The notes beneath the pieces are model-generated. The model had not been told where the DNA came from, ran no database searches, and worked only from the letters and a program-made list of their open reading frames with translations. 64,000 nt of DNA from Mytilus galloprovincialis (lineage: Eukaryota; Mollusca; Bivalvia; Mytilida; Mytilidae): the NCBI RefSeq assembly GCF_965363235.1, contig NC_134843.1, forward strand, positions 5,332,001-5,396,000, written 5' to 3'. The stretch's first letter is position 1, and each line of letters starts with the position of its first letter. The translations under genes and the position numbers were made by a program. Below are positions 3,888 to 60,400 of the stretch, piece by piece.

Positions 3888-6800
3888 TTAGTCGTATATC
3901 AAACTTGATCTTTGAATATCCTTCACAAAGTCGGCATGTGTTACGTGAACTTCGTCCCAGAAATGATGTTGTTTAACTCTTGTTAACCATGCTTCCACTT
4001 TCGGCCACATTTTGTAATTAAAGTTTGTCCATTCCAAGAGCACTAAAACAGTTGCTACAGATGTATCTGCAATAGTTGTCCTTGGGCCTGTTAGATATTT
4101 GTTATTCATGAGATACCGATTTTCAATAACTTCCAGAAGCTTTGTCACTTGACGCAGTCCATGTTCAATCAAACACTCATTTGACTCTGTCGTTTTAAGA
4201 CTGTAGTAGTCCAAAAATTGTGGGTAAATGTAAGAATAACCAATTACCCTGAAAAAAATTTAATTTTAGATATTTACAGCAATATGTTTTGTACTTTTAG
4301 ATGCAGCTATTGTTAAAATACCATATATACATATTAAGCAAAAAAAAAAAAAACCCAAATTAACAATAATGCGTTAAAGGTGTATGCTTTGTTATTTTTT
4401 AATCCTTGATGCAAATAAACTCATCATAGATATCAGGAAGCCTGATGCGCGTTTCTTAGATACAAAAGACTCATCAGTGACGCTCGAATAAAAAAGTTAA
4501 AAAGGCAATATAACAGAGAGGCAATGCAAATTCGTTAGTTCAAAAAAGACAGACAATCCAGAGTCCGAATGAAAACAAGAAGTTGCACGTGTTGTCATTC
4601 TAAGCGTACTGTTACTGGAGAAAAGTGTGACCAAAATATCAAGTTCGTTCAACCTATTGAAAAATATAAGATATCGGTATATATGAAGAAGCCGTTCCTT
4701 TGGTTCATGCTCAGTAAGCTGGGTATTCACAACATTCTCTAGAAAATGAATAGTTACGTCTTTAAATTTTGATTTAATGACTTGAAGAGTCGTGGTGTAG
4801 TGGTTAGTGCATCGGACACTAACACAAATGTTCCTGGTTCGATTCCCGTTCGGGATGAAAATTTCAGGAACTCAATTTTCGGCTCTCCCTAATTGACACC
4901 ATTTGCGAGTATGGTCTGGAGGAAACGATGATAGTCCGTTGGAAGGGGACGATAAATGGCTGACCCATGTTAAGAGAGAGCCATATCTCTTGCACGTTAA
5001 ATACACCTTTGTAGCTTTCGAAAAATATTAGGATAATGCCGCTACAAGGCAGCACTCGCACCCGCAATGTGGAAAGGGATTAATATTAGTTGCAAAACTT
5101 GTTTCCCAATCCACTATAAATAAATATGTTTAAACTAAAAGGAAAATGAAAAAAAAAAATAGTATACAAATATACCTGTGTACTTCACTAAAGCACCAAC
5201 TAATGACTGATTCAGATAACATTTGCTGCTGAAGACTTAATCCATATCCGGCATAATTTGTATACTTCATCGCTAGGTATCGCAAAATAGCTTGTCTGTA
5301 AAATACAATTCAGAAATGTACAAAAGGAAAAACATCAAGTTTCTTTATTAATATGTACTGTGAACTTTTCTCCACTAATTTTACCAAGGCTCAAGGTTGT
5401 TAGGTACTGTGGATTAATTTATTTTCGTGGGCTATGTTTTGGACCGTTTTGTTGGTTACTCTAAAACGTGTTATACCTTTGTTCTCGAGCATACCAAATG
5501 AAAGAGTTTATGTAGTAGGGCTAATTTTCCTGAGATTTATTTCACGTCTAGACCTTTCAATCAATAGTCAAATGCATAGTATTGTATAGTGTGTATAGTC
5601 TTTCCGATACAAATTATTTCGTTTTTGTTAACGTCATTCGATGCAAATCTGACAAAACTTATAAGACTCCCGTATAGCAGTTATGTAAAATATACCGTGT
5701 CACCATGACTTATTCATACATACTAGGTTTCGAAAAAAAGATGCTCTAGACTACTGCAAATTATAAGTGCTAATCTAGAGAACGTAATGATCAGGATTAT
5801 AGATCAGAACTTAAAAAGACATGACCTTTTCCATTGGTATAATAAATGGAAAAGACCTATTATTGCTGTTTTAACTAATGCTGGTGCAAAAAAAAGTCAA
5901 AGAGTGGAGGCATATTTCTTTACTTATGTATATATATAAATATATATAAAAATAACATTTAACGGTATGTGTATGTCGAAAACTTGGGTCTCTTCAGTGA
6001 TTCACAAGGACAACAGATATTTCAATGAAAAACTTTATAAAATGTGTGCAAAACTAGAGAAGATTTATTCCTTAGTTCTAAATAGTTGAGAAGTACATCA
6101 TATGATAAGATTGAATGTTAGAAAATATATTTCTGAGAAATGAAAGTAAGTTTATTGAGTTTTTTGTTGTTGTTAATAAAATAGATACCCTTCAAAAACA
6201 ACGATGTCTCCATCTACTAGTAAAGGAACTTCCTGATGAGAATGACTTTTGAACACTTCGGGTATCTTCGTAGAATGCTTTGAGAAGTCTACATCATGTA
6301 AAATGTGTGGAATTTCGTGCTGAAAACAACAGAACAAAAAGATAACAACCGTATGTAATTATGAAAAGCAGTAGACATCACACATTGATTGGAGAATATT
6401 GTGAAGAAAATAACAAAAGATAATAAAAATATATAACTAGACCACGAATATATTTCTCCAACTACGCATACTTTTTTGCATTAGCTTGTGACAATTAATA
6501 AAAATACAGATTGTCACAGACATTGAAAAGTCCCTTCTTTTTTTGCTCGGACTCGTACTGCTTAATCTTAAGATTTCTTTGAAGTGTTTTATGAACTATT
6601 GTGATTTTTGTTTCCCCCTTTTATTAAGAAAAGACTTACATATTCTTTTCTACTTTAGACTTTTCTTCATCCCTTAAGTATAGTCTTTCTTTTTCTAAAT
6701 ATAATACACCAATGAGCTACACCAGTCGATAAATGTTATGGAATGGGCTGAAAAATCTTGGTTAATTTTATTACTAAAAAAAGTTAATCGGGAGATACCA

Positions 6801-17294: not shown

Positions 17295-20200
17295 TCAACT
17301 GACTTCATTTAAATGTGTGTTAATGTTTTCCCAGTTGTGTTGATTTGCTTTGTGTAGAAAATCTATCCACTGTTGATCATTTTCTGTCACGAAATCACAT
17401 TTTCTGAAAAAGAGAGAGAAGTATGAAGTATTTAGCTCACTAAACAGTTCAATTAAAAGTTGTATATAATATGAAATGATATGAAAAAAAATCTGAATTT
17501 TTCTGGTTAAGGTAAAACCAATATTTTTTTCCAATTGTACTTATACTGGGGATTCATTTATTTTCTTGGGTATCAATTTTCATGGATTGATTATTGGGGA
17601 CTTGCATTTTCATGGATATTTGATTTCATGGTTTTTGCCTATCTCTGCATACATAGCTATAGAAAATTTATTATTTGTTCATCATTTGAATTCATGGCTC
17701 ACATGTACCCAAAATGACGTCATATGTCCAGTTCAAGCATTAAATTTTAACATCAGACGTTTTAAACTTTTTGTACACTTCAAAATGTAATATAATTTGA
17801 CAAAAAGAAGATTTTCAGGCAATAAGTATGAGTGTAATGCATTTTATTGAAGAAATCACATCTGTCTAATGCCATTGACAAAATTTTCATTGTCTGAACC
17901 TTTGAAAGTAATCAATAACCTTAAAATGGCAAATGGAAATTAAATGTTGTGATATCGTTTCAGGATGCTCTAAAAACCAATCCATTTTTTTTTTTTTCAT
18001 TTTTCATACGAGAAATATTTTTTCATGCAAGATATAGATGGCCACGACCATAAGAGAAAACACTGAAATATATAAATGACACCAGTCTTGATAATATAAT
18101 TTTATGCATTTAACTGTTTATGAATTTAAGCTCTTTGAATTATTTGTGTTTAATACTGCTCTTGCTGGAGTCATTGATCCTTATTGTGATATTCAGATTT
18201 TTTTTTTTAATATAAGAAATTCTAACCATGTTCACCGACTCTAATTCTTTTTTTTTAACAGTCATATCACTAGATATAAATTACCTGATAAATTCTAACA
18301 TAGTTCCTTGGATTTGGTAAACAGTCTTTCCCTAAAATTATTAGATATCACACTGTACAATATTCTTATAATTCATCAACATGTATTAACACACAAATAT
18401 TTTTTTTTAATACTGTTAATAAAGTCTTTGTTTTGTAACACTTATCATGCTTATATTTTCTTTCCAGGGGTACCTCTTCCATATGCTAAAATTTTACGCA
18501 TCAAGCTCTGCTATTGTTATCATTATTAATCAAGTTTATATATGCATGGGTGAACTGAAATCTGATATAATTTGTTTTATGCATATAAGCTGAGTGTATA
18601 GATTAAAATAAACCATAGAAAATATCAAAAAATAGTAATGACATGATATGAATATTTCCAGTGAACAAATAATTTTAATTATCATACTTACATTTTCATT
18701 CAATGTCTGGTAATGTAACGGTGGATACAAACTAGATGCCAATTCATCAACGGCAGGACTTAATCTGTCAACAAGATCTGCTAAATCATCAAGCTGTGTT
18801 ACAGTCTGTTCACTATTACAACAGGCATTCTTCTTTACTGTGTCCTTCGTCTTCTTAAGTAATGATTTGGAGGCTTTCAGCAAACCAAGACATGGACCAA
18901 GTAATGTTTTATCTCGTTCTGACCATGTGTTTTCATTATCTGATCCGACATCTTCACCAAGGAGTTCATCAAGGTCATCTCCCATACCTCCACTGTCTAC
19001 AGCCTAGACATTAATAATTTAAAATTACAAAAAAATTAACCAGTTTCCAATTAATTAAATGTATATAATTTTTGGTGGATAATGACACTTTCAGCAGTAT
19101 TGGCGTTTGAGGTTGCCAGTTTTTATTGTTTGAATGACCAGAGAGAACCACAGACCATCAGTAGGTAAACTGGCAATCCAAGTCGATTAGGATTGATGTT
19201 AAATGTAACTACCCAGAGCAGGGTTAAAACTAACAACCATAAAAGTGTTAAAAGTCAGAATCTCAGTGTTCACAAGCTAATGATACAGTAGCTGAACTAC
19301 TAAGATCCAATTTGAAATAAAAATATGAACAATGGGATGAGGAGATGAGACAGCAACCCAATTTTGTACTTTAACTTGACTTGCAACCGGAAGTAGTAAT
19401 TTCTTGGCGTATTGTGATAATAAATATGATCAGTAGTAAAATGCCTTCAGGTTTACACTATTTGTCAAAGATTCAGGCCTCATAACTTTGTGTTTCAGAC
19501 CTCGAAGGTGAGCCCACCCCTCCAAAAAAATAATTTTGTCCAATTTCAATTTTTGAAATTCGTATTTGAGCTCAAAATAAACATTTAAAAAAAAACATAA
19601 CAATCAATAGTATAAGATTGAGGAAACATGCATACACTTCGAATTAATTGGCATTACAATGACCTCCAATTGGTGCCAAATAACGTTGGTCTGGGTACGG
19701 CCGTAATATTACGGCCCCCACATGGTAAGGGTTAAAAATTAAAACTTATATCTTATAAGATAACCTTTGATTCATCATTTTTTTTGGTATTCTGAAGTAA
19801 GAGTCGGATCCTGTGGATTCATTATCATTCTTACCAATTTTCGTGGATTTCATTGCTCATGGTAAATCACCAATTTTAATGTTTGATGAAGAACAACTTT
19901 TCTACAGGTTTGCTTTCAGATTTTTGCAAAACCACGACACATAATTTTGAATACAATTTTTCCTTAATCAACATAAATTGGTATCCATGTTAGTTTTAAG
20001 TTTGCATCATAATTTTAAAATTCATAAAAAGATGTAAGAGACATGCATGACAATGGTAAATCTTTTGCAATGAAATGACTTATTGCTTATTCTTGTACCT
20101 CTTGTATTTCTTGTAAAGCATCAGTAGCCATCCCCTGTGCCTCACATATAACCTTTAATACAGCTTCTCTATTATCTGAAAGTACAATACAAAGTAAATA

Positions 20201-37337: not shown

Positions 37338-40300
37338 ATTTGGACAACAGAAATGTATGCATGTTGGGCAGGTGGAAAAGTTTGCAAGAACCAACGTGGT
37401 CTGAAGATGCATATTGGAAAGATGAAATGCAATCCAAATCAGAGCATAACACAATGCACAGGTCAGCCTGGTGAGACGGAGGAGTAGGTGGTTCAGGATA
37501 CAAACCACACATGCCACAGTGACCACAGCTTCCCTATGTTATACAATGAGGAGGACATTATAGTAGAGAGGAGTCAACAGGTACAAGAGGGTTAATTAAA
37601 CAACAACCGGCAGCCACAAGAGCCAAAAAGAACATCAGACACAAGCAAGTGCAACAAAAGGGGGAAAAAGAGTGAAATGGCCCAACAATAAAAGTAAAAA
37701 GTAATGGCAACAGTTTGATGAGGATGTAGATGCAATTTTGAAAACAACATTAGCAGGTAGCATAGATACTATGATAGAATCGATCACATCATATATTTAC
37801 AACATTGGTATGGACAGATTTGGTGCAGATGAGAAAGAGGTGGTGAGGCGTGAGGGTCAAAAGAACAGACGAGAATCCAAGCTAGCGAAGCTGGGGAAAG
37901 ACCTTAGACAACTTAAGAAAAGATATATTTAAGCTGCAGAGGATGAAAACCAGTTTTATCTGAACTTAAGGAAACCATCAGGAAGAACCTCAAGATTACA
38001 ATGAGAGCAGAGAGAACTAGGAAAAGGAGAAAAAAGAGAGAAAGCAAGAGCTTAATTTACATTTTCAAGATTGTTGGGGAAGAAAGGGTACTGAAAGCTA
38101 GTACATAGGAAGTAGAAGAATATCTAAGAGAAAAGCACAGTGATACAAAAAGGGAAGAAGACCTACCGGAGATAGAACAACTAAAACGCCTGGAAGACCC
38201 AGAGCAGGCTTTTATGAATTACCACCAAAGTGGATAGGGGTAGTAGATGTCATCAAGAAAAGAAGAGCAGTATCAGCACCAGGTCCAAATGAAGTACCAT
38301 ATAAAGTATACAAGAACTGTCAGAGAATTATAAGACGTTTATGGAAACTGATAAGGGTCATTTGGAGAAGAGGTTGACTTGCAGAGAGTTTGCACAAGGC
38401 AGAAGGGTGCTTTACACAAAAGGAAGTGAAGTCCGAGACGGTGAAACAGTTTAGAACAATTTCACTGTAAAATGTGGAAGGAAAAATATTTCTTGCTATT
38501 CTTGCCAAATGACAAACTACATGCTGAGCAATAACTAAGTTGAACTTGCAGTACATAATAATGAAGGTGTACCAGGTTTATCAGGCTGTATGGAACACAC
38601 ACCTGATTATCACAGATAATCCGAGAAGAGAAAGATTCAAAGGGTGAGCTTGCAATCGTCTGGTTGGATTTAGCGAATGCATATGGGACCTTACCACACA
38701 AGTTAGTTGAGTTATTGCTGGAAATATACCATGTACCTGACGGAATAACAGAGCTGATAAAAGAATATTTCAACCATCTACAGCTAAGATTTACAGTTGG
38801 AGATTATACAACATCATGGCAACGTTTAAAAGTGGAAAGAGTGACAGGATGCATGATATCTGCCATCCTTTTCTCAGCAGTAATGAATATGACTTGTGAA
38901 GTCAGTAGAGAAGAAGAGCAGAGGGCCATGGATGAAGTCAGGAGTACGGTAACAACCAAGAAGGTCATTCATGGATGATATGACAAAAAGCACAAAGACA
39001 GTGATTAAAGCCAGATGGGAAATACAAGAGCTTGCTAGAATGGTCAAACGGTCAAGAATGAAAATAAAGACAAGCGAATCCAGAAGTTTGGTGATAAATA
39101 ATGGTAAAGTTTAGGAGGAAAGGTTTAAAATAGGAGACGAGATATTTCCATCAGTCTCAGAGAAGCCAGTTAAATGCCTGAGATAATGGTCAACAACACT
39201 TTGTTAGATAAGTTGAATGTGGAAGATACATATCAGCAGCTGCACGACTGGTTCAAGGAGGTAGATAAGAGCGGATTACCAGAGAAATACAAGGCATGGA
39301 TTTACCAGCATGGGATATTGCCTCGGCTGTTGTGGCCACTTCTTGTGTAGTTTGTACCAATGACAACGGTAGAGGGAATGGAGAGAATTTCAAACGGTAC
39401 TTACGAGATGGCTTGGAGTACCACGCAGGTTTAGCAGCGTCGGCCTATACAGTTTAGGAAGCAAGTTACAGCTACCACTCAAGTCAATCGCTGAGGAATT
39501 CAAGGTGACCAAGGTAAGACAACATCTGATGTTAAAAAACCAACAGGGATGAGAAAGTACGGTCAGCAAAAATAGACATAAGAACAGGAAGGAAGTGGTC
39601 GACAAAGAAGACAATAGAAGATACTGAGTCACGATTAAAACACACTGAGATAGTTGGCAGGGTTGCAGTTGGAAGACAGGGGTTGGATGTAACTTCTACA
39701 GCAAAACGGAAGAAAAAATCCCACCTTGTACAGAAAGAGGTACGATCAATGTAAAAAGAAAGTATAATGGTTGAGGCAGTGATTATGAAGAAACAATGAC
39801 GCTGGTTAAACAGGGAAGGAGCAAGGCAGCTGTAGTTAGGATGGAATGAGATCTGGAAGATGGAGCCATACAGGATGCAATTCAAGCTGAAGTCAGTATA
39901 TGATGTATTGCCAAGCTCAACAAATCTAGCAACTCGGGGATTGATAGATGACCCATAGTGTGTTCTTTGCAGTAAGGCAGCGAACTTGGAGCATATACTA
40001 TCTTCATGCTCGAGTGCTTTGAAAGACGGGAGGTACACATGGCAACACGACAAGGTATTAGGGATATTAGCAGACACACTAGAGAGAAACATCAGGAAGC
40101 CAAGAAAGAACAAGGAAGGCCTTACCTTTGTCAATTTTGTTAAGGAAGGAGAGAAAGGACAGAAGAAGAGTGGGGAAGGAAGTGGTTTACTGGGAACAGC
40201 AACTGATTGGCAAATGTGGGTTGATCTGATGCAGAAATTCCAATTTTCGCCACAAATTTCCGTAGTAAACCAGCAACCTGTCATCGTCATTTGATCAGCC

Positions 40301-40771
40301 TCAACAACACAGGCAATCCTGCTGGAACTTTTGGAAGAACGCATAGAAGATGCCAGCGAAAGAAAGAGATTGAAGCATCAAGACCTACTTGCATAATACA
40401 GAGACAATGGGTTGAGGGTTTGGTTATTTCCAGTGGAGGTGGGAAGCAGAGGGTTTGTTGGGCAGTATATGTGGAGGACATTGAGAGCACTTGGTATTAT
40501 TGGAGGGGAAAGAAGTAAGCTGATTGGTAACTTATACAAAGAGACAGAGACATCATCAATGTGGTTATGGAGGGAAAGGTCTGAGCTGTGGAAGCAGTAA
40601 AGTGTAGAGGCAGGGATGGATAGCCATGTGGTTTCGGGCTGGAACTTGATCGCCCCAAACTGTGCACCACTGGAGGCTGTAGTGGACAACGCCGAAACTG
40701 CCGAGGAAGGAGGATTCAACTGAAGACGGAACCACGCATCTTTCCAACAGGATGTATTAAGGTACTAAAAA
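37338..40771 (+). mobile_element. R2-group LINE (restriction-like endonuclease type), nearly full length, decayed
   Basis: Pieces in order in several frames are as follows. A worn zinc finger (KVCKNQRGLKMHIGKMKC, from about 37380) opens the element. The reverse transcriptase follows with APGPNEVPYKVYKNC (about 38280), WLDLANAYGTLPHKLVELLL (about 38660) and SFMDDMT with the catalytic DD (about 38965). The CCHC segment is LEHILSSCSSALKDGRYTW (about 39985), and the endonuclease-like end is VWLFPVEVGSRGF ... WLWRERSELWKQ (40412-40600). Identical 10-bp target duplications AGTAATAGGA flank it (37328-37337, 40772-40781). The coding frame is interrupted by several stops and shifts, so it cannot move by itself. 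HERO is my best guess for the clade. Confidence 0.85.
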
Positions 40772-48870: not shown

Positions 48871-50350
48871 AGTGCGAATACAACAGTATCTTATATATTA
48901 TATGGGGACAATCACTATTTTTGATTGGGCACAGGTGACCCGTGAAAAGTCCAAGAATTTGACCAGAATAGTACAAAATGACCACTGCATTAATTGATTT
49001 TTCTTACATGTTCTTCGTATTAGTTTATTAACTGGTTTACAGAAGGCTGTTATTTCGTTATCAGATTAGGGTGTCTCGTAATACAAACGAAATATATCAA
49101 ATAATAAATAACTTCAATGTCAATAGAAACCAAAAATTGCTATTGATCCTGGTAAAACAGTTCTTAGTAGTGTGATAAAATAATCATATACCACTGTGCA
49201 ATGTCTATATCTTAGTAACTTAAAATGTACTATCACCAAAGTTTAGAGTTAATTTCAAATTTCGATTATTGAGTACTGTCATCGAAATAGTCAGTTTTGT
49301 TTTAACACAAAGTCAACTTATACTGATGGTTTGGCGACTTAGTACGACCTCAGTCTGTCACAAAGAAAACACGAACATGTCTGTATAACAAGCGAGTGAG
49401 GACAGACACTATTGTACTTTATATCGTTTGCTATTGGTAACTTTTCTTCTTAAATTATTTCTGAAGAGATATAATGATTATCAGTAGTAATATATAAAAA
49501 AGACTTTACAACAAATATATTTTGTTCTCAGATTTAGGCAACAGCAGTTAACAAATTAAGTCAGCAACAAACAAAAACTAGGCGAATTGCATGAATTTCA
49601 AAGGGAGAGAGACCGGGTAGGTCGAAAGGGTAAACGTCTCCTTCTTTGCACCAAAGGTCATGAGCGGGTTATATGCCTGAACATATGAACTTATATATTA
49701 ATGGCCGGACGTGTGACCATATTCTCTTCAAACAAGTTCATTTACTACATGCTGTCTTACTGTCAAAGATCTTATTCTAGAATATATCAAGTTTTTATTC
49801 TATCAAATTTCATTTTTGTACTTCCTTTCCACTTTTATTAACTGACTGTGTATATCAGTTAACATAAACCCAAATGTACAATGGTCTACCTAATAATGAC
49901 AAATAGTTAACAAGAGCACGAATTGTGGTAATTATACAAATATATATTTACACATCTTACATGTGCACTTTGACATGCATAGTTTTATCGCCCTGTTATA
50001 AGACTAATATTTTGAACAACCTGTATGAGTCATTAACATGTAGGTAAATATCAAAAGTACACTTTCTATATATACTAACCCCTGATTATATCACCTATCT
50101 TTTTAGGTGTTCTTATGTTATAATATTTCGCTTCACTTAACAAATCAGCCGTATTTCGATTCAGAAAAGTTAATTCATTTATTCGTTATTCAATAAATGA
50201 ATCGCCCCAATTTTATCACATTTACATGCATTGTCAACATCTTTCTATGCTGTGTTTCCTAAAACTTGAGACACGACAGGAACTGAATGTTCAGAATATA
50301 AGTGCAAGCTTGGACAAATTGACTCAAATTATTTAATTCTTTTATTTCAG
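48871..50350 (+). other. Upstream region of the first alpha-kinase-like gene
   Basis: No named repeat or coding exon seen. It ends with a strong acceptor (TTCTTTTATTTCAG, 50337-50350), so at least one upstream exon, probably non-coding, lies farther left and could not be located. Confidence 0.45.
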
Positions 50351-50353
50351 AAA

Positions 50354-53308
50354 ATGGGTAAATGGGATGTGATACAGTGGACAAGGAAATCAACGAACAG
50401 TGTACGTGATAAACAACCAGTAAATTCCTGCTTTGGATTGTATCCACAAGTATATACCCCTACAAAATTGGTATACAAGGCTGCAATAATCTGTAATGAA
50501 TTTGAAAAACCGGAAGTAGGTGTCGTCAAAGCTAGGCGATATAGACCAGGGACAGAAAGATACTGGCAGGGAGAACTGGATCAAAATCGCTATGCACATC
50601 AAGTAGCAACCGCATTTACAGACCAAACGCTTGCTGCTCGAATAGAAATCGTGGACCAATATCTAGCACCACTCCATAGACACACCAGTTGGGACAAAGT
50701 CTGTCTAAAACTAAAGCCAAGATATTTCAGACAGTTGTTGAAGTTTGAAATTGTGTTACTGGAAGAAGTTGTGCGAGATCTAAAGCCTTTCAAAAACGAT
50801 AGAGTTTTAGATGCGTTTTCTCATTTTTCATATTCAGAAAGCAATGGTGAAAACATGTTGAATGCATTTCAAGGCAACAAAACAGATGATGGAATATATC
50901 TATTGTTAACCCCAGACATGTTAACTCATAAGTACGATATTCACAAATGGTTTGAAAAACACACGTGTAATGACATTTGTGGCAAATTTAAAAAGCCACC
51001 AAGTATTACTGAAACCATTCAACCCATGAATATTCCACCAACCGACAATATGTTCTTTAATTTTCAAAACGATTCTCGACCGCCGAGCTACGAAGACGAT
51101 ATGTCGAGAGATGCACCGAACGAAAAGGGTAATGATAATGCTAACTTAGAAACTACTTTTGGAGCTAAATCTTGTGATGGGTCGTTTTCTGTCGTCACTG
51201 CATTAGTACATTCCGACAGTTTTGGGAAGAATAAACCATTATTACAGGAACAAACTTGCAACCAAGTTGGAGAAAAGTCGGCACTTACAACAGAGCAGCT
51301 ACCAATCGACAATGTGGATGTTACCGACCAAGATTGCCTTGACGGGAGAGATAGTCACATATACGATACTGAACCGACGAATATCAACCTTTATAGATTT
51401 AAAAGTTTAGACGAAGATAAACAAATGAATAAGACTATTTCTTTAAGAAGTGAAAACTTGCCTGGAAATGACATTGAAGAAATAGAGGTCGGCAACTACG
51501 ACATGGCAAGTTCAAAGTTCGAGGCAACAACCCTTGTCATGAGACCTAACTTTTATTCTTTAAATGTCAGTGAAATAGGAAATGAAGACAATGTGAATAG
51601 TGCTGAGCACTATGTGGACTTAGAGAAAAAAGAACAACATGCAACAGTTTCCATGGAAAATTGTTTCGGTGACGAAGAAATACCAAGATATGTGAACAGC
51701 TTTGGAAGAGATATAGTAACGTCATCAACATTGCCTAATCAAAATGGGGCAAATGAAAATGATCCATCACAACAATATACATCCGAACAGAATTCCTCAT
51801 CTCAAGAAAGTAGTCCGTTGATACAGCAACAAATTCTATCTGAAGAACATTGCACGAGTGAAAATTCTGACATGACACAGAATCATTCAGAAAACAGTGA
51901 ATTATCATTTTCATCCACATTATCATGTGAACCTGAACAACCAACAGAATTTCAAGTCTGTACTTCTGTACTACAACCGCAATGTCAAAATACATATAAC
52001 ATTTCACAATCAGAAAACATATCTCCATTTATTCATACTGAACAAAATACTAACCAACCGCAACAACGAAATGAACAATATAAGCCTCTTGTTACTGAAG
52101 AATGGAACTCTGAATCAAATACATATTGTGAAATACAAAATGTTGGAACTATTTCTTTGCCAGTGACAGAGGTCTCATCTTCGACTATGATGGAACCAAA
52201 CACTTATGAGCATGACATTTCGAATGAAAGTACACTAAGCTCCTTAGAGATGTTTGCGAGAAATTATATCATACCTGAATATGATGCAAACGAGCAAAAT
52301 AATTCAAATCCTTTTATGTTTAAGGATTTAAAGGAAACAACCGAAGAACTGATACCAGATATCACAGAAAATGTTGAAAATAGCAATAAACATGAATCAG
52401 GAGTAGAATCAGGAGTAGAACGTATTTGTGAAGAACACGACAAAGCAACTCCAAACGCAGGAACAAATATAACAACCAGTACACTTCTTGTGAAAGAAGA
52501 ACCGGAAATATCATCTAAAGCAATAGAATTAAAAAATAACTGTATTAATACAAATCCTACTGATTGTGAAAATGTGTCGGAAAGGGACGTAACAGAACCA
52601 ATGTCTGTCCTTGACGAAAACAAAATTAAAGAAAAACCCGTGGAAACAATGGAGCGTGCAGATTTAATGGCAAATGATAAGACCGAGCAAAATTCTTTTC
52701 TAGACAATGATGATAACGATGTCCAGAAATTACTTGATGTACAGAAGTTACTTATATCAACCTCAGATAACACCGATTCTATGGAAAAAGAAAAGAACGA
52801 ACGCAACTCTCGTCTCAACAGCGATCCTCATAAACCATCCAACCCAGAATTTTTGATAAAATACAATTTACACGAGTTTGTTGATCCAAACGAGAACGGA
52901 AGTTATTGTCATTCTCCAAACTCTACTCCTGCGTCAATACCAACCACTTCAGAACTATTGGAACAACCAAGTTCACCACATATAACAACTACCGAAGCAG
53001 AAGTAGTTCCATTTCAACGACAAAAGCCGCTTACATCATCACTGCGTTCAAGTAAGCAAAAACACAAGACTAAAAGCGTGAAATTTGCAGATGATATAAA
53101 TGTTGGGACAAGAAACAATATTAATGGACAGCAGACTGAAAATGATCTGGGACAAAAACCACAAACAATATCACCAGTGATAAAAATTTCAACGTCAGAT
53201 TCTACAGAAACAAAAAGTTTAGAGCCTATAAACTCGGTGGATGCAAACTGGTATACACATATTCCTTGTGAGTGTTGCGACAACCAAAACATAACCGGAC
53301 GAGACTGA
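50354..53308 (+). CDS. Alpha-kinase-like pseudokinase with long acidic disordered tail, 984 aa
   Basis: One uninterrupted frame. Residues about 25-215 align with the alpha-kinase fold of MHCK/eEF2K/TRPM7: a beta-3-like VGVVKARRY (K59), a glutamate region LLEEVV (137-138), DAFSHFSY (153-160) and the zinc-site end HTCNDIC (H203, C205, C209; H157 as partner). The DLQG catalytic motif reads AFQG and the LTDP motif reads LTP, so both catalytic aspartates are missing. The Gly-rich GxGNxG loop before the zinc end is absent. A pseudokinase or atypical binding domain is inferred. Residues about 220-984 are Asn/Ser/Thr/Glu-rich, without domains, and include KSVKFAD (907-913), a PP1-type RVxF motif. The start is taken as the ATG 3 bases after a splice acceptor; the paralogue at 55666-57441 has the same arrangement. 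AATAAA at 53990 may end the transcript. The family's usual DLQG and TDP residues are cited from memory. Confidence 0.85.
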   Translation: MGKWDVIQWTRKSTNSVRDKQPVNSCFGLYPQVYTPTKLVYKAAIICNEFEKPEVGVVKARRYRPGTERYWQGELDQNRYAHQVATAFTDQTLAARIEIVDQYLAPLHRHTSWDKVCLKLKPRYFRQLLKFEIVLLEEVVRDLKPFKNDRVLDAFSHFSYSESNGENMLNAFQGNKTDDGIYLLLTPDMLTHKYDIHKWFEKHTCNDICGKFKKPPSITETIQPMNIPPTDNMFFNFQNDSRPPSYEDDMSRDAPNEKGNDNANLETTFGAKSCDGSFSVVTALVHSDSFGKNKPLLQEQTCNQVGEKSALTTEQLPIDNVDVTDQDCLDGRDSHIYDTEPTNINLYRFKSLDEDKQMNKTISLRSENLPGNDIEEIEVGNYDMASSKFEATTLVMRPNFYSLNVSEIGNEDNVNSAEHYVDLEKKEQHATVSMENCFGDEEIPRYVNSFGRDIVTSSTLPNQNGANENDPSQQYTSEQNSSSQESSPLIQQQILSEEHCTSENSDMTQNHSENSELSFSSTLSCEPEQPTEFQVCTSVLQPQCQNTYNISQSENISPFIHTEQNTNQPQQRNEQYKPLVTEEWNSESNTYCEIQNVGTISLPVTEVSSSTMMEPNTYEHDISNESTLSSLEMFARNYIIPEYDANEQNNSNPFMFKDLKETTEELIPDITENVENSNKHESGVESGVERICEEHDKATPNAGTNITTSTLLVKEEPEISSKAIELKNNCINTNPTDCENVSERDVTEPMSVLDENKIKEKPVETMERADLMANDKTEQNSFLDNDDNDVQKLLDVQKLLISTSDNTDSMEKEKNERNSRLNSDPHKPSNPEFLIKYNLHEFVDPNENGSYCHSPNSTPASIPTTSELLEQPSSPHITTTEAEVVPFQRQKPLTSSLRSSKQKHKTKSVKFADDINVGTRNNINGQQTENDLGQKPQTISPVIKISTSDSTETKSLEPINSVDANWYTHIPCECCDNQNITGRD

Positions 53309-55665
53309 AGATAATTTTGCGTTTAAACCAATGCTGTAGAACTTTTACTGGAAATTATTCAATGCACACATTGGTTCGGTTCCGTGTAAAAGAAGAATTT
53401 ATCTCGATGTTAAACACATCTGGACAACATTTTAAGCTTACTTATTTCTTTGTCGAGCCAAAAATGTAAAGGTTAGACAAACTATTTCCTTGACTGGATT
53501 AATCAACTCCTTAGATATATAAACGAGTGATACCGATTTCAGTAAAAACCTTTATCAGGTTTGTCAAAGTCAGGCACTGTCAAAGTCCGGCACTGACTTA
53601 TATTTAGCAAACGGAACTTGGATTTTTCATAATGGTTCACCTAACGTACAAGTAAACTTGTACACCCGAAAATGAAAAAAGTCGTGGACAAAAACTAGTC
53701 GTCGGCTTTACACGTAGTTCAACGGTAAACAAATTACGGATATCGTATTTCTATCAACTCTAAAACTCAGTCAGAATTATGTGATAGCTTGGCATGGATT
53801 CCTAATTTCAAACTATGAAAATAGTTGTTTGTGTTTCTATTCATACATTGGATTACGTAAACAACGTCAAGTTAAGACATAATAATATTATGCAATTGTA
53901 AACAATGCTGTATATCAAAATGTTATTACATAAATATAACTGAAATTAACTATTAGTTTATGTGCATGTAGTGCAATTAATTATGTAAAAATAAATCAAA
54001 TTGGTAGTTTTCCAAACAAGTGCAAATTTCATAGCGGATAGTTTGATTCAACAGTTGGTCATATGAAACAGAAAATGCAAACTTGTTGGAAAAGGGGGGG
54101 GGGGGGGGGAGGGGGTAAAGATCTTTTTGCCAACTATGTATTTGAAAGCAATTTATGTATTACTTTTTAATATATACAGTAAATCAATATTTACATAAAT
54201 TGTTCAGTTTAAACGAAATCCGGGTCAAACGTTTGCAAAATGGCTATTACTTTAGAGCAGCAGAAGGAGGGAGGGGGGGGGGGCAATCTTTTTAACGTTC
54301 CTTTTTTTAGAAATATATTTCGTATGGATATGAAATGTAAGATAACTGTGATATTTAGATCCAAATTTGTACAACACATTTTTGGGGAAATAAACTAATA
54401 TATAATATAATATAGTCCTGGTGTGAAATGAAATTATTGGAAACTGTTTATGTTTTTTTAATAAGTTGTAAAATTTCAACGAAATAGTAACAAAAATTTA
54501 AAAGTCACACAATTGATGCAATCATGGGCAATTACTGTTTTATATATGCGATATAATTATTGTTTTCTTAATTTACTGCTTAGAATTAAAAGTACGTCTA
54601 TGGTTTGTAATTATTCATGATTTTTAGCAATTCATTACAAAAGAGCAGAAGACTTTTCTCTATCAGAGAATTTCATTATATCTATTATTATTCTGAATAT
54701 ATCAGACAATTCTTTCCAAATTTGAACACAAGTTTTTTCAGACGAAAAAAAAACACATAACGCTTACGCGACCGGCACCAATGGATGTCAAATACTTATA
54801 TGATTGAACTAATGAGATGATCGTGTTTTGCTGTTTTGTACGGGTTTCTGATGAGTTATTATAGCAGCAATACATGGTCTTTGAGTCGAGGCCAAATGGT
54901 AAGCGATAATCTACGTCAATGAGACAACCGCAGTCAATTTTTTTTAGCCTGATGATTACGGAAAATTAAGCCAAACTAATTAATTCAGAGACGATGGTCA
55001 TCATCAGCGACATATGTCACGGTAGGAAGGGGATGACTTAAAATGTTGGAGAGCAAAACATGACTTGACTTAGTTTGTTGAACACTGGTGGTAAGGTTTC
55101 CAGATTTATAGCTTCAAGTATGACTCTTGTACTGTTGCACATCTCATAATAATGTACTGAAGTGTTTGCTGTCACAGAAATTGGCAATTAAAATGGGATT
55201 GTTTGAAGGTGTCCGTTAATTCAAGTGAATGATATGCAATACCTGACTATACGTATACGGTATGGGTGTTGTGTATTGTTGTAGACTGAACGTTGGTTTA
55301 ATGTCCCCTACATCTACGATATTTTTGTTTCTGGCGGATATATAGTTAGCTCTTTGGCAGTCATACCACATCTTCTAATGATATATAAGGTTTATATAAA
55401 CATAGAATTGTTTCATGAAAATATGTGTTTGATTGAAACAAGTAACAAATAAAATATGCAGGTCTCAATATCAGGTCTCAAAACCCTGGTTTAATAAGAA
55501 TTTCGCAGTAAATATTACGCAACACTTAAATCGCCTCTCTGGACAAATACGTTACAAGTTTCGAGTCAAAAACATGTTTAAAAGGCAGACGGATAGCGGT
55601 TTAGTAATGAACAATTGCATATTGTAACTAAATAATACTGGTATGTAATATATATAATGTATCCA
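53309..55665. other. Intergenic spacer between the convergent paralogues
   Basis: AATAAA at 53990-53995 could serve the plus-strand gene. Two long G tracts occur: 54094-54109 (16 G, then A and 5 G) and about 54270-54282. No gene was found. The 64-aa frame at 55433 is not convincing. A TCTTTGGCAGTCATACCACA fragment at about 55352 is a dispersed-repeat end. Confidence 0.5.
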
Positions 55666-57441
55666 TTAAGAGGCTAATGTAGCCTGTTTCCGAAGAGATT
55701 TTTTAGACTTTACTTTGATTTCACTGACACTGTCGTTGCATTTCGGAGATTCTGCTGCTGCAATGTTGGGTGGATTTACATGTATACTAGGTTCCCGCAA
55801 TGAAGTGTTAGGGAGGTCTTGTTTGTCTGAACGATGTTCTAATTCATTTTTATCTAAATGAGGTACTAAGATAACTTTTTCCGGTTGACTTTCCGGTGTA
55901 TCATTTGTTTGTTCAGATGGCCTATCACTCAGATTTGATTTTAGGAACATTTGTTCTTTGTTGACAACTTTTGGTAATCTATCGGGGAGATTTTGTACAC
56001 TTTTAGTTTCCTGGGTTTGCTTTTCATGTAATTTTAACTTAGGGTCTTGTTTCTCTTTATTAGCTATTCTGGAGAAACGCAACCTGAGTTCATCTTGTAC
56101 GGCCATTTTATGAACACCGTATTTATCGTCAGTACCTGTATCATTTTCATTGTCTATCCTTTCTTGTTTCTTTAATTTTGGTTTCGGTTTGATTTCAGGC
56201 TTTGGTTTTACTTCGGGTTTTTGTTTGATTTCGGGTTTTGGCTTGATTTCCGGTTTTTCTGTCGATTGAGCGTTCATCTTTTTTGGCATCCTAACATTTT
56301 GAACGTCCATAGTATGAACTCTTACCGGTTTATTTTTAGTACTTGGTGAACTATGTTCAGTATTAGTCCGTTTTAGAACATGAACATGTGAATCGGATCG
56401 GTCCTTTCGGATGGCATTGTCAACATATGGCGCACTTGTTCTTTTGATTGACCCACGCCTCTCTTTCTCGTCTTGTTTTTTAAGCGAACCTCGTCTCACT
56501 TTTTCATCGCTTTTAAGTACTGACCCCCTTCTTCCTCTTTCGTCCTGTTTTGGATCTTCATGAACATAAACGGCATGCATAATAGTGGTCACTTTTTTCT
56601 TCGATGATGCAAATGATTGCTCCTGTGGTGGGGCAGATGGATTTCTCAAAATTCCAGGTGAGCGGTGTGGAATTTTAATCTGTGAGGCATGTTCACCGGG
56701 TTCGTGGACTCGTACAGATGTTTGTCGTTGTAGTTTCAAATGTTCGCTGGAAGCAGGTATATGAAATAATGGTGTATCTGTTGTAATCTTAACATCAGGC
56801 TTGCTCCAGCCAACGCACAAATCGTTACAAGCATGGTCGTCGAAAAATTCATTAATTTCCTTTTGTTTCTGTAATATTTTTGGAGTTAGTAGATGGTATT
56901 CATTACCACTTTTAACTCCTTTGAATATGGCGATAACAGACTGATGATTTCCTTCTATAAATGAAAAATGCGAAAAGGCATCTAAGATGATATCTCCTTC
57001 AAAGAAAACCATTGTATCCGAAAGTAAAGGTTCAATTAGCACTATTTCATCTTTTTTAAAATCTCGAAAATCGTACTGTTTCATACTCCGACAAATTTTA
57101 TCCCAACGAGAATATCCTTTTAAGGGGGCAAGATACTGCTGAACAAAACTGATTTTCCCCGCCCCAGTTTTCTCTGTAAAGGCACTAGCTACACCAGCAG
57201 CATGGGTATTTGAATCTAAACGAGGCTCCCAGAACTGCTCCGTTCCTGCTCTGAATCTTCGGAATTTAACAATGGCTTTCTTTGGTTTGGGAAGATGCTC
57301 GCCATACATAACAGCATCATAAACAAGTTGTGTGTACGTTACATCTTTGGGATAAAATCCAAAGCATGCCCACACCGATGGTTCGTCGTCTTTATTCTCC
57401 AACGAGGCCTCCGTAAAGTGAACTATATCAAATAGGCCCAT
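55666..57441 (-). CDS. Alpha-kinase-like pseudokinase paralogue with basic tail, 591 aa
   Basis: A single long exon aligned end to end with the 50354 gene over about 215 residues: CFGFYP, AIVKFRRFRAGTEQFW (K59), YLAPLKGYSRWDKIC, IVLIEPLL (E137), LDAFSHFSF (H158) and DHACNDLC (H203, C205, C209). The DLQG equivalent is IFKG and the LTDP equivalent is LTP, so again no catalytic aspartates; the conserved Q is also lost. No Gly loop is present. The tail differs from the paralogue: it is Lys-rich, with three RRGS sites (residues about 303-331, coordinates 56440-56540) spaced by EK/DEK repeats, and a Lys-Pro array of KPEI/KPKP units (about 394-424). The RRGS sites match the basophilic (PKA-like) phosphorylation consensus. 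The ATG lies 3 bases after an acceptor (TTTTTACAG). The function is unknown; a scaffold or sensor role is only inferred. Confidence 0.85.
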   Translation of the reverse strand: MGLFDIVHFTEASLENKDDEPSVWACFGFYPKDVTYTQLVYDAVMYGEHLPKPKKAIVKFRRFRAGTEQFWEPRLDSNTHAAGVASAFTEKTGAGKISFVQQYLAPLKGYSRWDKICRSMKQYDFRDFKKDEIVLIEPLLSDTMVFFEGDIILDAFSHFSFIEGNHQSVIAIFKGVKSGNEYHLLTPKILQKQKEINEFFDDHACNDLCVGWSKPDVKITTDTPLFHIPASSEHLKLQRQTSVRVHEPGEHASQIKIPHRSPGILRNPSAPPQEQSFASSKKKVTTIMHAVYVHEDPKQDERGRRGSVLKSDEKVRRGSLKKQDEKERRGSIKRTSAPYVDNAIRKDRSDSHVHVLKRTNTEHSSPSTKNKPVRVHTMDVQNVRMPKKMNAQSTEKPEIKPKPEIKQKPEVKPKPEIKPKPKLKKQERIDNENDTGTDDKYGVHKMAVQDELRLRFSRIANKEKQDPKLKLHEKQTQETKSVQNLPDRLPKVVNKEQMFLKSNLSDRPSEQTNDTPESQPEKVILVPHLDKNELEHRSDKQDLPNTSLREPSIHVNPPNIAAAESPKCNDSVSEIKVKSKKSLRKQATLAS

Positions 57442-57444
57442 CAC

Positions 57445-60400
57445 CTGTAAAAATATATATGTAAAGTAGTAAAAGATGCTAAATAGACGCCCCTCTTCCT
57501 ATATACTTAGTATATCATTTTCCTTTCAGTCAATTATTACCTTGCTGTGTCAAATAGTAACTCATTTAACACTGTTTTTTCTTTTTAAATGTTAAAGTTG
57601 TGAATCGTCTATCGAAACATTTTTGATATTGTAGTGTTTTGAGCCATCTTTGTCACATGGTTTCATGTTCATAAACATTACATAATGCTATCAAAACACA
57701 AAATAAAAATATGTAATCAGGAGTATAATTGCAAATTAGACAACTATCCCGAGTTCATGTTTGTAGCTATCATATCTGTATAGGATAAAATCTTATAAAG
57801 GTCGTTCGTCCTGAATATATATGCATGAAATATTGGTCGCTGGACGTTAAGCAACTAACAATCAATCATTATAAAGGTCGTAGAAGTTGTTTAAAAATAG
57901 CCAAAGTGTTAAATAATTTCAGGGACATTTGTTCTTCCTCCTACAAATATACTACATAGGGTTTCCTTCAAAACAAGTGATAAATTGACCACTTCCATTG
58001 TAGATAAAAAAAAGTGTTTGCTTTTGTCCATGATTTACAAGTATTTACATTTTAAAGGGTTTAAGTCCCCACATAATTTCACAATGGAAATAGTCGAAGC
58101 TTATTGATAAAAAAAACATCAACCAAACGAAATACCCAGACATTGAAGCTTGCACTGGTAATATTATATGAATATGAAACTATTCGTAATCCTAATGGAA
58201 TAGCCCGTTTGGGATGTATTATTCAATAAGAGGTATACATTAACTGTGTAAAAATACTTTGATTTCGGAGAAACGATTTCAAATGAGTAAAATCGAAAGG
58301 CAAACACTTTCTGGTTACATGACGACGAATCATTCAAATTCCTCATGTAGAGTTGGTATCGTCATGGTAACTATCAAAACAAAAATTTCTACATTTTTAA
58401 AATATTGGGCGCCGGGCGTATGCGTGTTATTTTTTCTTGTAACACGGAGGACATTTGCGCTACAGGCACTATATGGCAAGTACACTACAAATATTTTGAA
58501 TAAAAAAATTAACACAACCATCCCTTTTATATGACAGAAAATTGAGCGCCATTAGTGCATGCTAAACAGATCGAAAACCTTTACAGAGACAATCAAAGAT
58601 AATTCGTTAAGAATTGGACCACACTATTGCTGCTTCCTATGAATTTAAAGGCAGCGTCGAAGGCCTCGTACAGAGTAAGAAGAAAGGGTATCATTGACCA
58701 GCAATCTATTAATAACATCAAAATTAGGTATGGTACACTTCAGTCCAGAACTGAAAGAAGGAAATAATTAGAGATGTGGGATAAAAACCAGTCAAGATAG
58801 TTTCATCTCTGGGTTACATGTATCAAGCTAAATCGGGCTTGTGATGACTACACATGTCCTACACTCATGTTTTTATAATTTCAACTACTATAGGTGAATA
58901 TAAATATATGAATGTGTTGTTTTGTTTTGGATATGAACTCCTATGAATGTAACCCTATGAAGGTCAAACTTGTGGGTATTTTCCGTATGAAGGGTGAGGA
59001 AAGTCACAAAACATTAAATCTCAGAATGCTGTTTAGATTAAGCGCAAATGTCAAATGTCCTGTAGAAAATCGCAAATGTCATAGCAAAAAGAGAAAACGT
59101 CCCAAGCCTTATACATTCGGATGAAATTCATTCTAAGATCGTTTGAAATTTGTAAATCTATATCCTAAAAGGATTAGTCCAATCATAAGAGATATGATCT
59201 ATAAAGCATCTTGGTAGTTGGGTTACTAGTAACTGGAATTCGTTTTTGTTTTTTGTTTTTTTTTCTACTTTGCAAACTTTCTTGGGTTGGTATTTGAAGC
59301 ATGAAGCATTAAATAAAAGGGTAGGTACGGAAATCCTGCCTTTTTTATAACTCATTTGATGATTGGTCCTAGCCTGTTGTATAGGAAGATATTTAAGAGA
59401 TCCGGATTACTAAAAACTTAAACAAACGAGTTTTATGTAACTTACAAACGCCGGGGGGTGTCAATAAAGGTGCATTTCGTGAGACTATTTGATACTAAGC
59501 CCAAATATAACGTGACTTTGAAGTGTAAAATTGAAATTAAGTGTATTTAAATCTAGTTTAAATTGCAGTGTGTCGAATTTCGTTTTATTTAATGTCCCCA
59601 CAAAAGAAGTAATTTTGATTGTTGATTCTTGCTTGCTGAAAGTCCAGTGGCAATTATTTCATGCATATTCAGGACCAGACTTCTATTATACATTAAACAG
59701 GTTAAATGTTCACATTTAGTCTGACAACACTGGTATTCAGACAGAATGTCCTGATAAAATCAATGAATTGATAGCGGTTTAGGTGTTTGTTTACTTTGAG
59801 CCGAAAACATTATCTGTCAACACAATATATATCTATCAGAAATATATACCATGTGTATCATAGGTCACAGGTTCATATGTAAACAACAGTAGACATAATA
59901 TTTCTGTGATTAAACGATACTGTGATTTAAAAGGCTAAAATAAAATAATGATTGTATATAAGAAACCTTCAATTTTGACAAACTTACCTTTTTCACTTAT
60001 ACATGTTATACACATATCTGTACTACATAACGGTCAATTTAGTCGTGGTAGATGCGTGAAACAAAGGTACAATCAGCTCATTTGCAAAGTAAAAGTAGAT
60101 ATTTCTGTCCCATCTATGGATACCACGTGTTTCATAGAAAATAATAGAAACAATATACTTTGTTTACACATTAATCCTGGCCACATGTGTCACATTCCTT
60201 CGTCACAGGTGAATTTTCATAGGTAAACTTACGCGGGTGGAGGTATTGGTGAATTTAACAAGTTCATGGTCTAGTTGTTAAAATGTGAAACGTCAATTGT
60301 AGTCTATTTATAGAACGTTACTTTTTCAATGCTATATCTTGAGTGCGATAAATAATTTATGGACTGTGCGCATTTGAAGAGACTGTACTAATTATCTCAT

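Follow-up and report, generated by a model that had tools for sequence, protein, structure and literature searches.

Two convergent genes with a common N-terminal domain

We analysed a 64,000-nucleotide window of the Mytilus galloprovincialis genome in which two long reading frames, P0001 and P0002, lie on opposite strands (Table 1). Both are open and convergent, as had been claimed from the letters of the sequence, and they are separated by a spacer of 2,357 nt. Their stop-to-stop frames extend over 1012 and 610 codons, respectively, against a longest frame of 177 codons in 200 first-order Markov simulations of the 12-kb region. Both genes had been described as single-exon; the coding frames are indeed uninterrupted, but a 5′ UTR intron is likely in both genes, because in each an acceptor-like site ends 3 nt upstream of the ATG. 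By eye, acceptor-like sites also end 5 nt before the ATG of L003 and 13 nt before that of L002, two relatives described below, and no clear one was seen before the ATG of L004. These sites point to a 5′ UTR intron that may be common to the members of this clan. The longest pair of inverted DNA arms between the window genes measures only 48 nt at 77% identity, in the region that encodes LDAFSHFS, and thus gives no hint that the pair arose by an inverted duplication of recent date.

Table 1 Features of the window (positions within the window) and loci of the clan on contig C6
Feature	Position	Strand	Remark
Gene 1 coding frame, P0001 (984 aa)	50354–53308	+	Predicted pseudokinase domain N-terminal, then acidic tail of 769 aa
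Gene 2 coding frame, P0002 (591 aa)	55666–57441	−	Predicted pseudokinase domain N-terminal, then basic tail of 376 aa
Gene 1 alpha-kinase-like domain, residues 1–215	50354–50998	+	Pfam match at residues 38–209
Gene 2 alpha-kinase-like domain, residues 1–215	56797–57441	−	Pfam match at residues 151–209
Gene 1 putative 3′ splice acceptor, pyrimidine-rich + CAG	50336–50350	+	By eye; ATG 3 nt on
Gene 2 putative 3′ splice acceptor, pyrimidine-rich + CAG	57445–57461	−	By eye; ATG 3 nt on
Gene 1 Lys59, likely ATP-site lysine (MHCK-A Lys645 equivalent)	50528–50530	+	Alignment A1; cross-family match non-significant
Gene 1 eroded active site, residues 168–191	50855–50926	+	AFQG for DxQG, LTPD for LTDP
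Gene 2 three tandem 12-residue units DExxRRGSxxxx, residues 300–335	56437–56544	−	Each with RRGS
Glutathione S-transferase C-terminal domain	3891–4259	−	PF00043, 31.3 bits (cut-off 20.7)
GCIP_C, Grap2 and cyclin-D-interacting protein C-terminal domain	18539–19003	−	PF20936, 83.1 bits (cut-off 36.2)
Frame cluster with raised GC and skew	37705–40764	both	One frame reverse-transcriptase-like by eye
Clan locus L002	C6, 73.44 Mb		PF02816 genome search
Clan locus L003	C6, 92.63 Mb		PF02816 genome search
Clan locus L004	C6, 92.72 Mb		PF02816 genome search
Clan locus L005	C6, 92.74 Mb		PF02816 genome search

Outside the gene pair, a Pfam scan of the frame at 38607–38975 gave no match, and Rfam at its gathering threshold found nothing within the window.

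The domain is related to alpha-kinases

Consistent with the original prediction of about 215 near-gapless N-terminal residues common to both proteins, P0001 and P0002 align from residue 1 with 96 of 242 residues identical (40%) and only 2 gap positions (E 3e-56 in a single comparison); in a 220-column alignment of the domain, identity was 42%. The HMMER comparison with the alpha-kinase profile PF02816 that the prediction had proposed gave both proteins scores that exceed the curated threshold of 21.3 bits (P0001, 35.2 bits; P0002, 26.1 bits), the P0002 match covering part of the C-lobe only (profile positions 120–185). No second Pfam family was found in either protein at E ≤ 10, although few matches above about 0.1 survive the HMMER filters.

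Searches of the PDB led to the same family. A profile built from five family members matched 11 distinct alpha-kinase sequences (E 2.4e-17 to 7e-11), including 4kuj (2.4e-17), TRPM7 (1.9e-12), MHCK-A, ALPK1 and eEF2K, followed by two engineered proteins at E of about 0.1. A profile of the window pair alone gave 11 sequences at E ≤ 10, all of them alpha-kinases (E 8e-4 to 1.2). Searching with full P0001 or P0002 by phmmer returned no PDB match up to E 1, which argues that both proteins are strongly diverged, and the N-lobe aligned weakly to sequences outside the family. Taken together, these comparisons show, at the level of sequence, that P0001 and P0002 are paralogous and alpha-kinase-derived.

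A clan of relatives on one contig

We searched the whole genome (1.38 Gb, 331 contigs) with PF02816. Of 11 candidates scored, at least seven places passed; these counts are lower bounds, and intron-split genes may escape. Two of the places are eEF2K-like exons on contig C9, and the others, on contig C6, are L002, L003, L004, L005 and P0001. P0002 is absent from the genome matches; it was recovered by protein searches and passes the cut-off in a direct scan. L002, L003 and L004 each occupy a single stop-to-stop frame (331, 318 and 297 codons), with PF02816 scores of 100, 89.9 and 86.1 bits. The reading frame of L005 is broken in two; its first piece has no Pfam match on its own, and its second was matched in the genome search. 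In two pieces, L005 is 71% and 79% identical to its near neighbour L004, with dN 0.18 and dS 0.73 in one piece and dN 0.09 and dS 0.51 in the other; it is either a tandem copy in decay or a product of misassembly. Among stretches that match a single peptide pattern in viral contigs (34) and genome contigs (43), tblastn confirmed no relatives.

In a tree of 12 sequences over 100 columns, the six clan genes fell together (bootstrap 99), with the window pair as sisters (94), and the nodes that place L002 and L003 were weak (67 and 50). The eEF2K-like exon from the same genome grouped with 7shq (bootstrap 81), apart from the window clade.

The five aligned clan members all start with MG. The starts of L002 (MGQQVS) and L004 (MGNNYS) fit the N-myristoylation consensus MGxxxS/T; those of P0001 and P0002 do not, and N-myristoylation was dropped as a proposal for the window pair.

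Catalytic columns are empty and zinc ligands are kept

We aligned the C-lobe in 12 rows, comprising five solved kinases and the eEF2K-like exon of the same genome as references, together with the six clan members. The Asp of DxQG, present in all six references, is replaced by Ala in P0001, Ile in P0002, Ser in L002 and Lys in L003, and is kept in L004 and L005. The Gln of the same motif, again found in 6/6 references, is kept in P0001, L004 and L005 and is Lys in P0002 and L002 and Glu in L003. The Asp of TDP (6/6 references) is Thr in both window proteins, Val in L002, L004 and L005, and Gly in L003. The Asn of the N/D-loop (6/6 references) is Asp in L002–L005 and is deleted in P0001 and P0002; in P0001, the deletion of this GxxNxG loop falls within a few residues after residues 168–191. 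The predicted absence of the DLQG and LTDP aspartates was thus borne out for both proteins, with the qualification that P0001 retains the DxQG Gln, in AFQG. The 'Gly-rich loop' said to be missing, if taken as the C-lobe N/D-loop, is deleted in both. Relatives carrying the aspartates in these columns, which the original prediction had named as counter-evidence, were found for DxQG (L004 and L005), but the TDP Asp is present in none of the six clan genes.

The zinc end of the domain is retained. DAFSHFS and HxCNDxC occur in both window proteins, as reported from the first reading, and the zinc ligands H, H, C and C (the His of SHFS, then H-x-C-x3-C) are kept throughout the six-member clan; the second zinc His of ALPK1 is displaced by one column in the alignment. 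All 11 rows that cover the column of the hinge Glu, both window proteins included, have Glu there. In the N-lobe, the column of P0001 Lys59 is invariant in all five rows of alignment A1, from which L005 was left out, and its pairing with MHCK-A Lys645 comes from a non-significant HMMER sub-alignment. Two residues that probably lie in the P-loop, a Gly and an Arg, are kept in L002, L003 and L004 and are both Thr in P0001 and P0002; we infer the assignment to the P-loop, as these positions lie beyond the reach of the cross-family alignments.

Asp766 of MHCK-A is indispensable for catalysis and is itself phosphorylated, Asp756 is one of the residues that catalysis requires, and the N/D-loop faces the triphosphate of ATP and forms the wall of that half of its site (PMC4876393, excerpt). 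A lysine of the type corresponding to Lys59, K85 of EhAK1, is required for activity (PMC4192601, excerpt). Loss of the TDP Asp need not abolish ATP binding, because the MHCK-A D766A variant was crystallised with ATP (PMC9921739, excerpt).

The domain could still be an enzyme that uses moved catalytic residues or another chemistry, such as AMP or ADP transfer, with the Asp of LTPD in P0001 as a candidate. Two residues that are invariant in 5/5 aligned members, the hinge Glu and the probable ATP-site Lys, speak for this reading together with the retained DxQG Gln of P0001, as does WNG1, which is active without a Gly-loop (PMC6442604, excerpt), so that inactivity read from sequence is not proof. 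MAFFT placed the Thr of both P0001 and P0002 in the TDP Asp column, and the Asp of P0001 lies outside that column, because FTVP of L002 and LTVP of L004 align their Pro with the Pro of TDP. We therefore rejected LTPD as a shifted TDP and read it as a loss: its Asp follows the Pro, and P0002 has Lys at that position. P0002 moreover has none of the Asp, the Gln and the second Asp, and both proteins have lost the N/D-loop. We consider a surviving enzyme improbable; catalytic inactivity of P0001 and P0002 is the likelier reading of the alignment.

The distribution of residues across the clan suggests a stepwise decay that would have begun with the TDP Asp, continued with the DxQG Asp and ended with loss of the N/D-loop in the ancestor of the pair. 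This order was obtained by parsimony, and its middle step, the DxQG Asp, depends on the weak tree nodes.

The tails differ and the domain is constrained

The tails had been predicted to be unrelated, one acidic and one basic. Charge counts agree (P0001, 57 K+R against 134 D+E; P0002, 77 K+R against 53 D+E), and comparison of tail with tail gave only insignificant short matches. Neither tail contains a Pfam domain. In the genome, the P0001 tail matches itself only, and all matches of P0002 to other genes lie inside residues 1–231.

The P0002 tail carries the RRGS units (Table 1), which we take to be PKA-type sites. Six positions of the unit are invariant (D, E, R, R, G and S), and at every one of them the codon differs silently between two or more units; at the remaining six the residue itself varies. 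Three basophilic sites spaced 12 and 12 residues apart occurred in 0 of 20,000 shuffled P0002 tails, and with spacing ignored the tail has 3 such sites against 0.77 expected (P 0.04). Other short motifs were weak when counted against shuffled tails, and their P values carry no correction for the 9 motifs and 4 tails examined. In the P0001 tail, these were an RVxF-like KSVKF (P 0.30), VKFAD (P 0.06), a single PPxY (PPSY, P 0.06) and one SxIP-like motif (P 0.25); the P0002 tail has a SILK-type GILR (P 0.02) and the L003 tail has PPPY (P 0.01).

Codon-position identities of the pair were 54, 71 and 36% at positions 1, 2 and 3, and Nei–Gojobori estimates gave dN 0.55 and a nearly saturated dS of 3.1. 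The domain of the window pair is under constraint. An intronless coding region and the broken frame of their relative L005 would suit decaying pseudogenes or functionless retrocopies. This explanation is disfavoured by the open frames, far longer than the simulated maximum, by the codon-position constraint and by the acceptor-like sites before both ATGs; nonsynonymous change below synonymous change (with dS near saturation) and the silent-only changes at the invariant RRGS-unit positions also stand against it, and we regard it as very unlikely. That the pair are ordinary active alpha-kinases whose missing residues are an alignment artefact is hardly credible, even with Pfam scores above the cut-off, as the same method recovers the canonical residues in the five solved kinases and in the eEF2K-like exon of the same genome, and neither position is occupied by Asp in P0002.

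A model of phosphorylation-regulated adaptors

Taken together, the PF02816 scores, the PDB matches to alpha-kinases and the catalytic columns left empty in both proteins uphold the earlier view of an alpha-kinase-derived, probably dead pair. Our preferred reading, to which we assign a probability of roughly 0.7, is that P0001 and P0002 are paralogous alpha-kinase pseudokinases that act as phosphorylation-regulated adaptors. Because the catalytic residues are lost, a role as a phosphorylation-regulated scaffold rather than as an enzyme is probable. The domain would fold as a zinc-stabilised alpha-kinase bilobe, a fold that we infer has been retained. It may bind nucleotide, since it keeps the hinge Glu and what is probably the ATP-site lysine, but would be unable to transfer phosphate, and its role would lie in protein interaction or allostery. 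Regulatory input would come through the unrelated tails, which would receive phosphorylation and recruit partners. In P0002, a basophilic kinase, for example PKA, probably targets the RRGS units, which could form a graded phospho-switch. In P0001, the PPxY and RVxF-like motifs might, more tenuously, recruit a WW-domain ligase or PP1. A bolder version is doubtful: an invertebrate radiation of alpha-kinase pseudokinases that decayed in the order given above into nucleotide-sensing, PKA-tuned adaptors, of which the most eroded pair acquired tails of opposite charge and might oppose each other on the same partner.

Relation to known alpha-kinases

An alpha-kinase pseudokinase is not new in principle, since ALPK3 has been named the first pseudokinase of the family (PMC9698156, excerpt), and the window pair is more eroded. 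In muscle, the alpha-kinase-derived domain of ALPK3 reportedly works independently of catalysis, a precedent for the role proposed here. Unlike the pair, ALPK3 retains a predicted catalytic Asp, D1774, and deviates at four interlobe-cleft residues; the window proteins lack both aspartates and the N/D-loop, and their domain is N-terminal. In ALPK2 and ALPK3, Ig-type regions lie beside the kinase domain. No such regions appeared in the Pfam scan of P0001 and P0002, which gave PF02816 only; ALPK2 and ALPK3 have been described as having 'Ig-binding domains' (PMC9921739, excerpt).

The kinase domains of TRPM6 and TRPM7 have an alpha-kinase C-lobe with the zinc end, as in the pair, whereas the pair lacks both aspartates and the N/D-loop; its Pfam scan, with PF02816 as the only family, also contained no TRPM6/7-type channel region. 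The TRPM kinase fusion has been described as a single event in the ancestor of vertebrate TRPM6/7 (PMC13143021, excerpt). eEF2K (human 7shq and the eEF2K-like exons of this genome at C9:65.58 Mb) belongs to the same family and has the same zinc motif, but the eEF2K-like exon is canonical, with DIQG, TDP and GNLG, unlike the pair. Among solved structures, the family profile matches 4kuj from Entamoeba best (PDB 'Protein kinase, putative'); 4kuj also has canonical catalytic residues in the aligned C-lobe, unlike the pair. Presumably, 4kuj is EhAK1 or a relative. The original prediction knew of no named family with this layout, and none was found in excerpts of the open-licence literature in a partly mollusc-directed search. 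In the mussel or oyster papers checked, 'alpha kinase' refers to the EIF2-alpha kinase.

Within one genome, the clan forms a six-gene series that runs from members that keep the DxQG Asp and Gln to the window pair, with empty catalytic columns and a deleted loop. Counts of PF02816 matches can therefore overstate the number of active kinases in such genomes, and the series makes the role and ATP binding of the alpha-kinase fold after the loss of catalysis directly testable.
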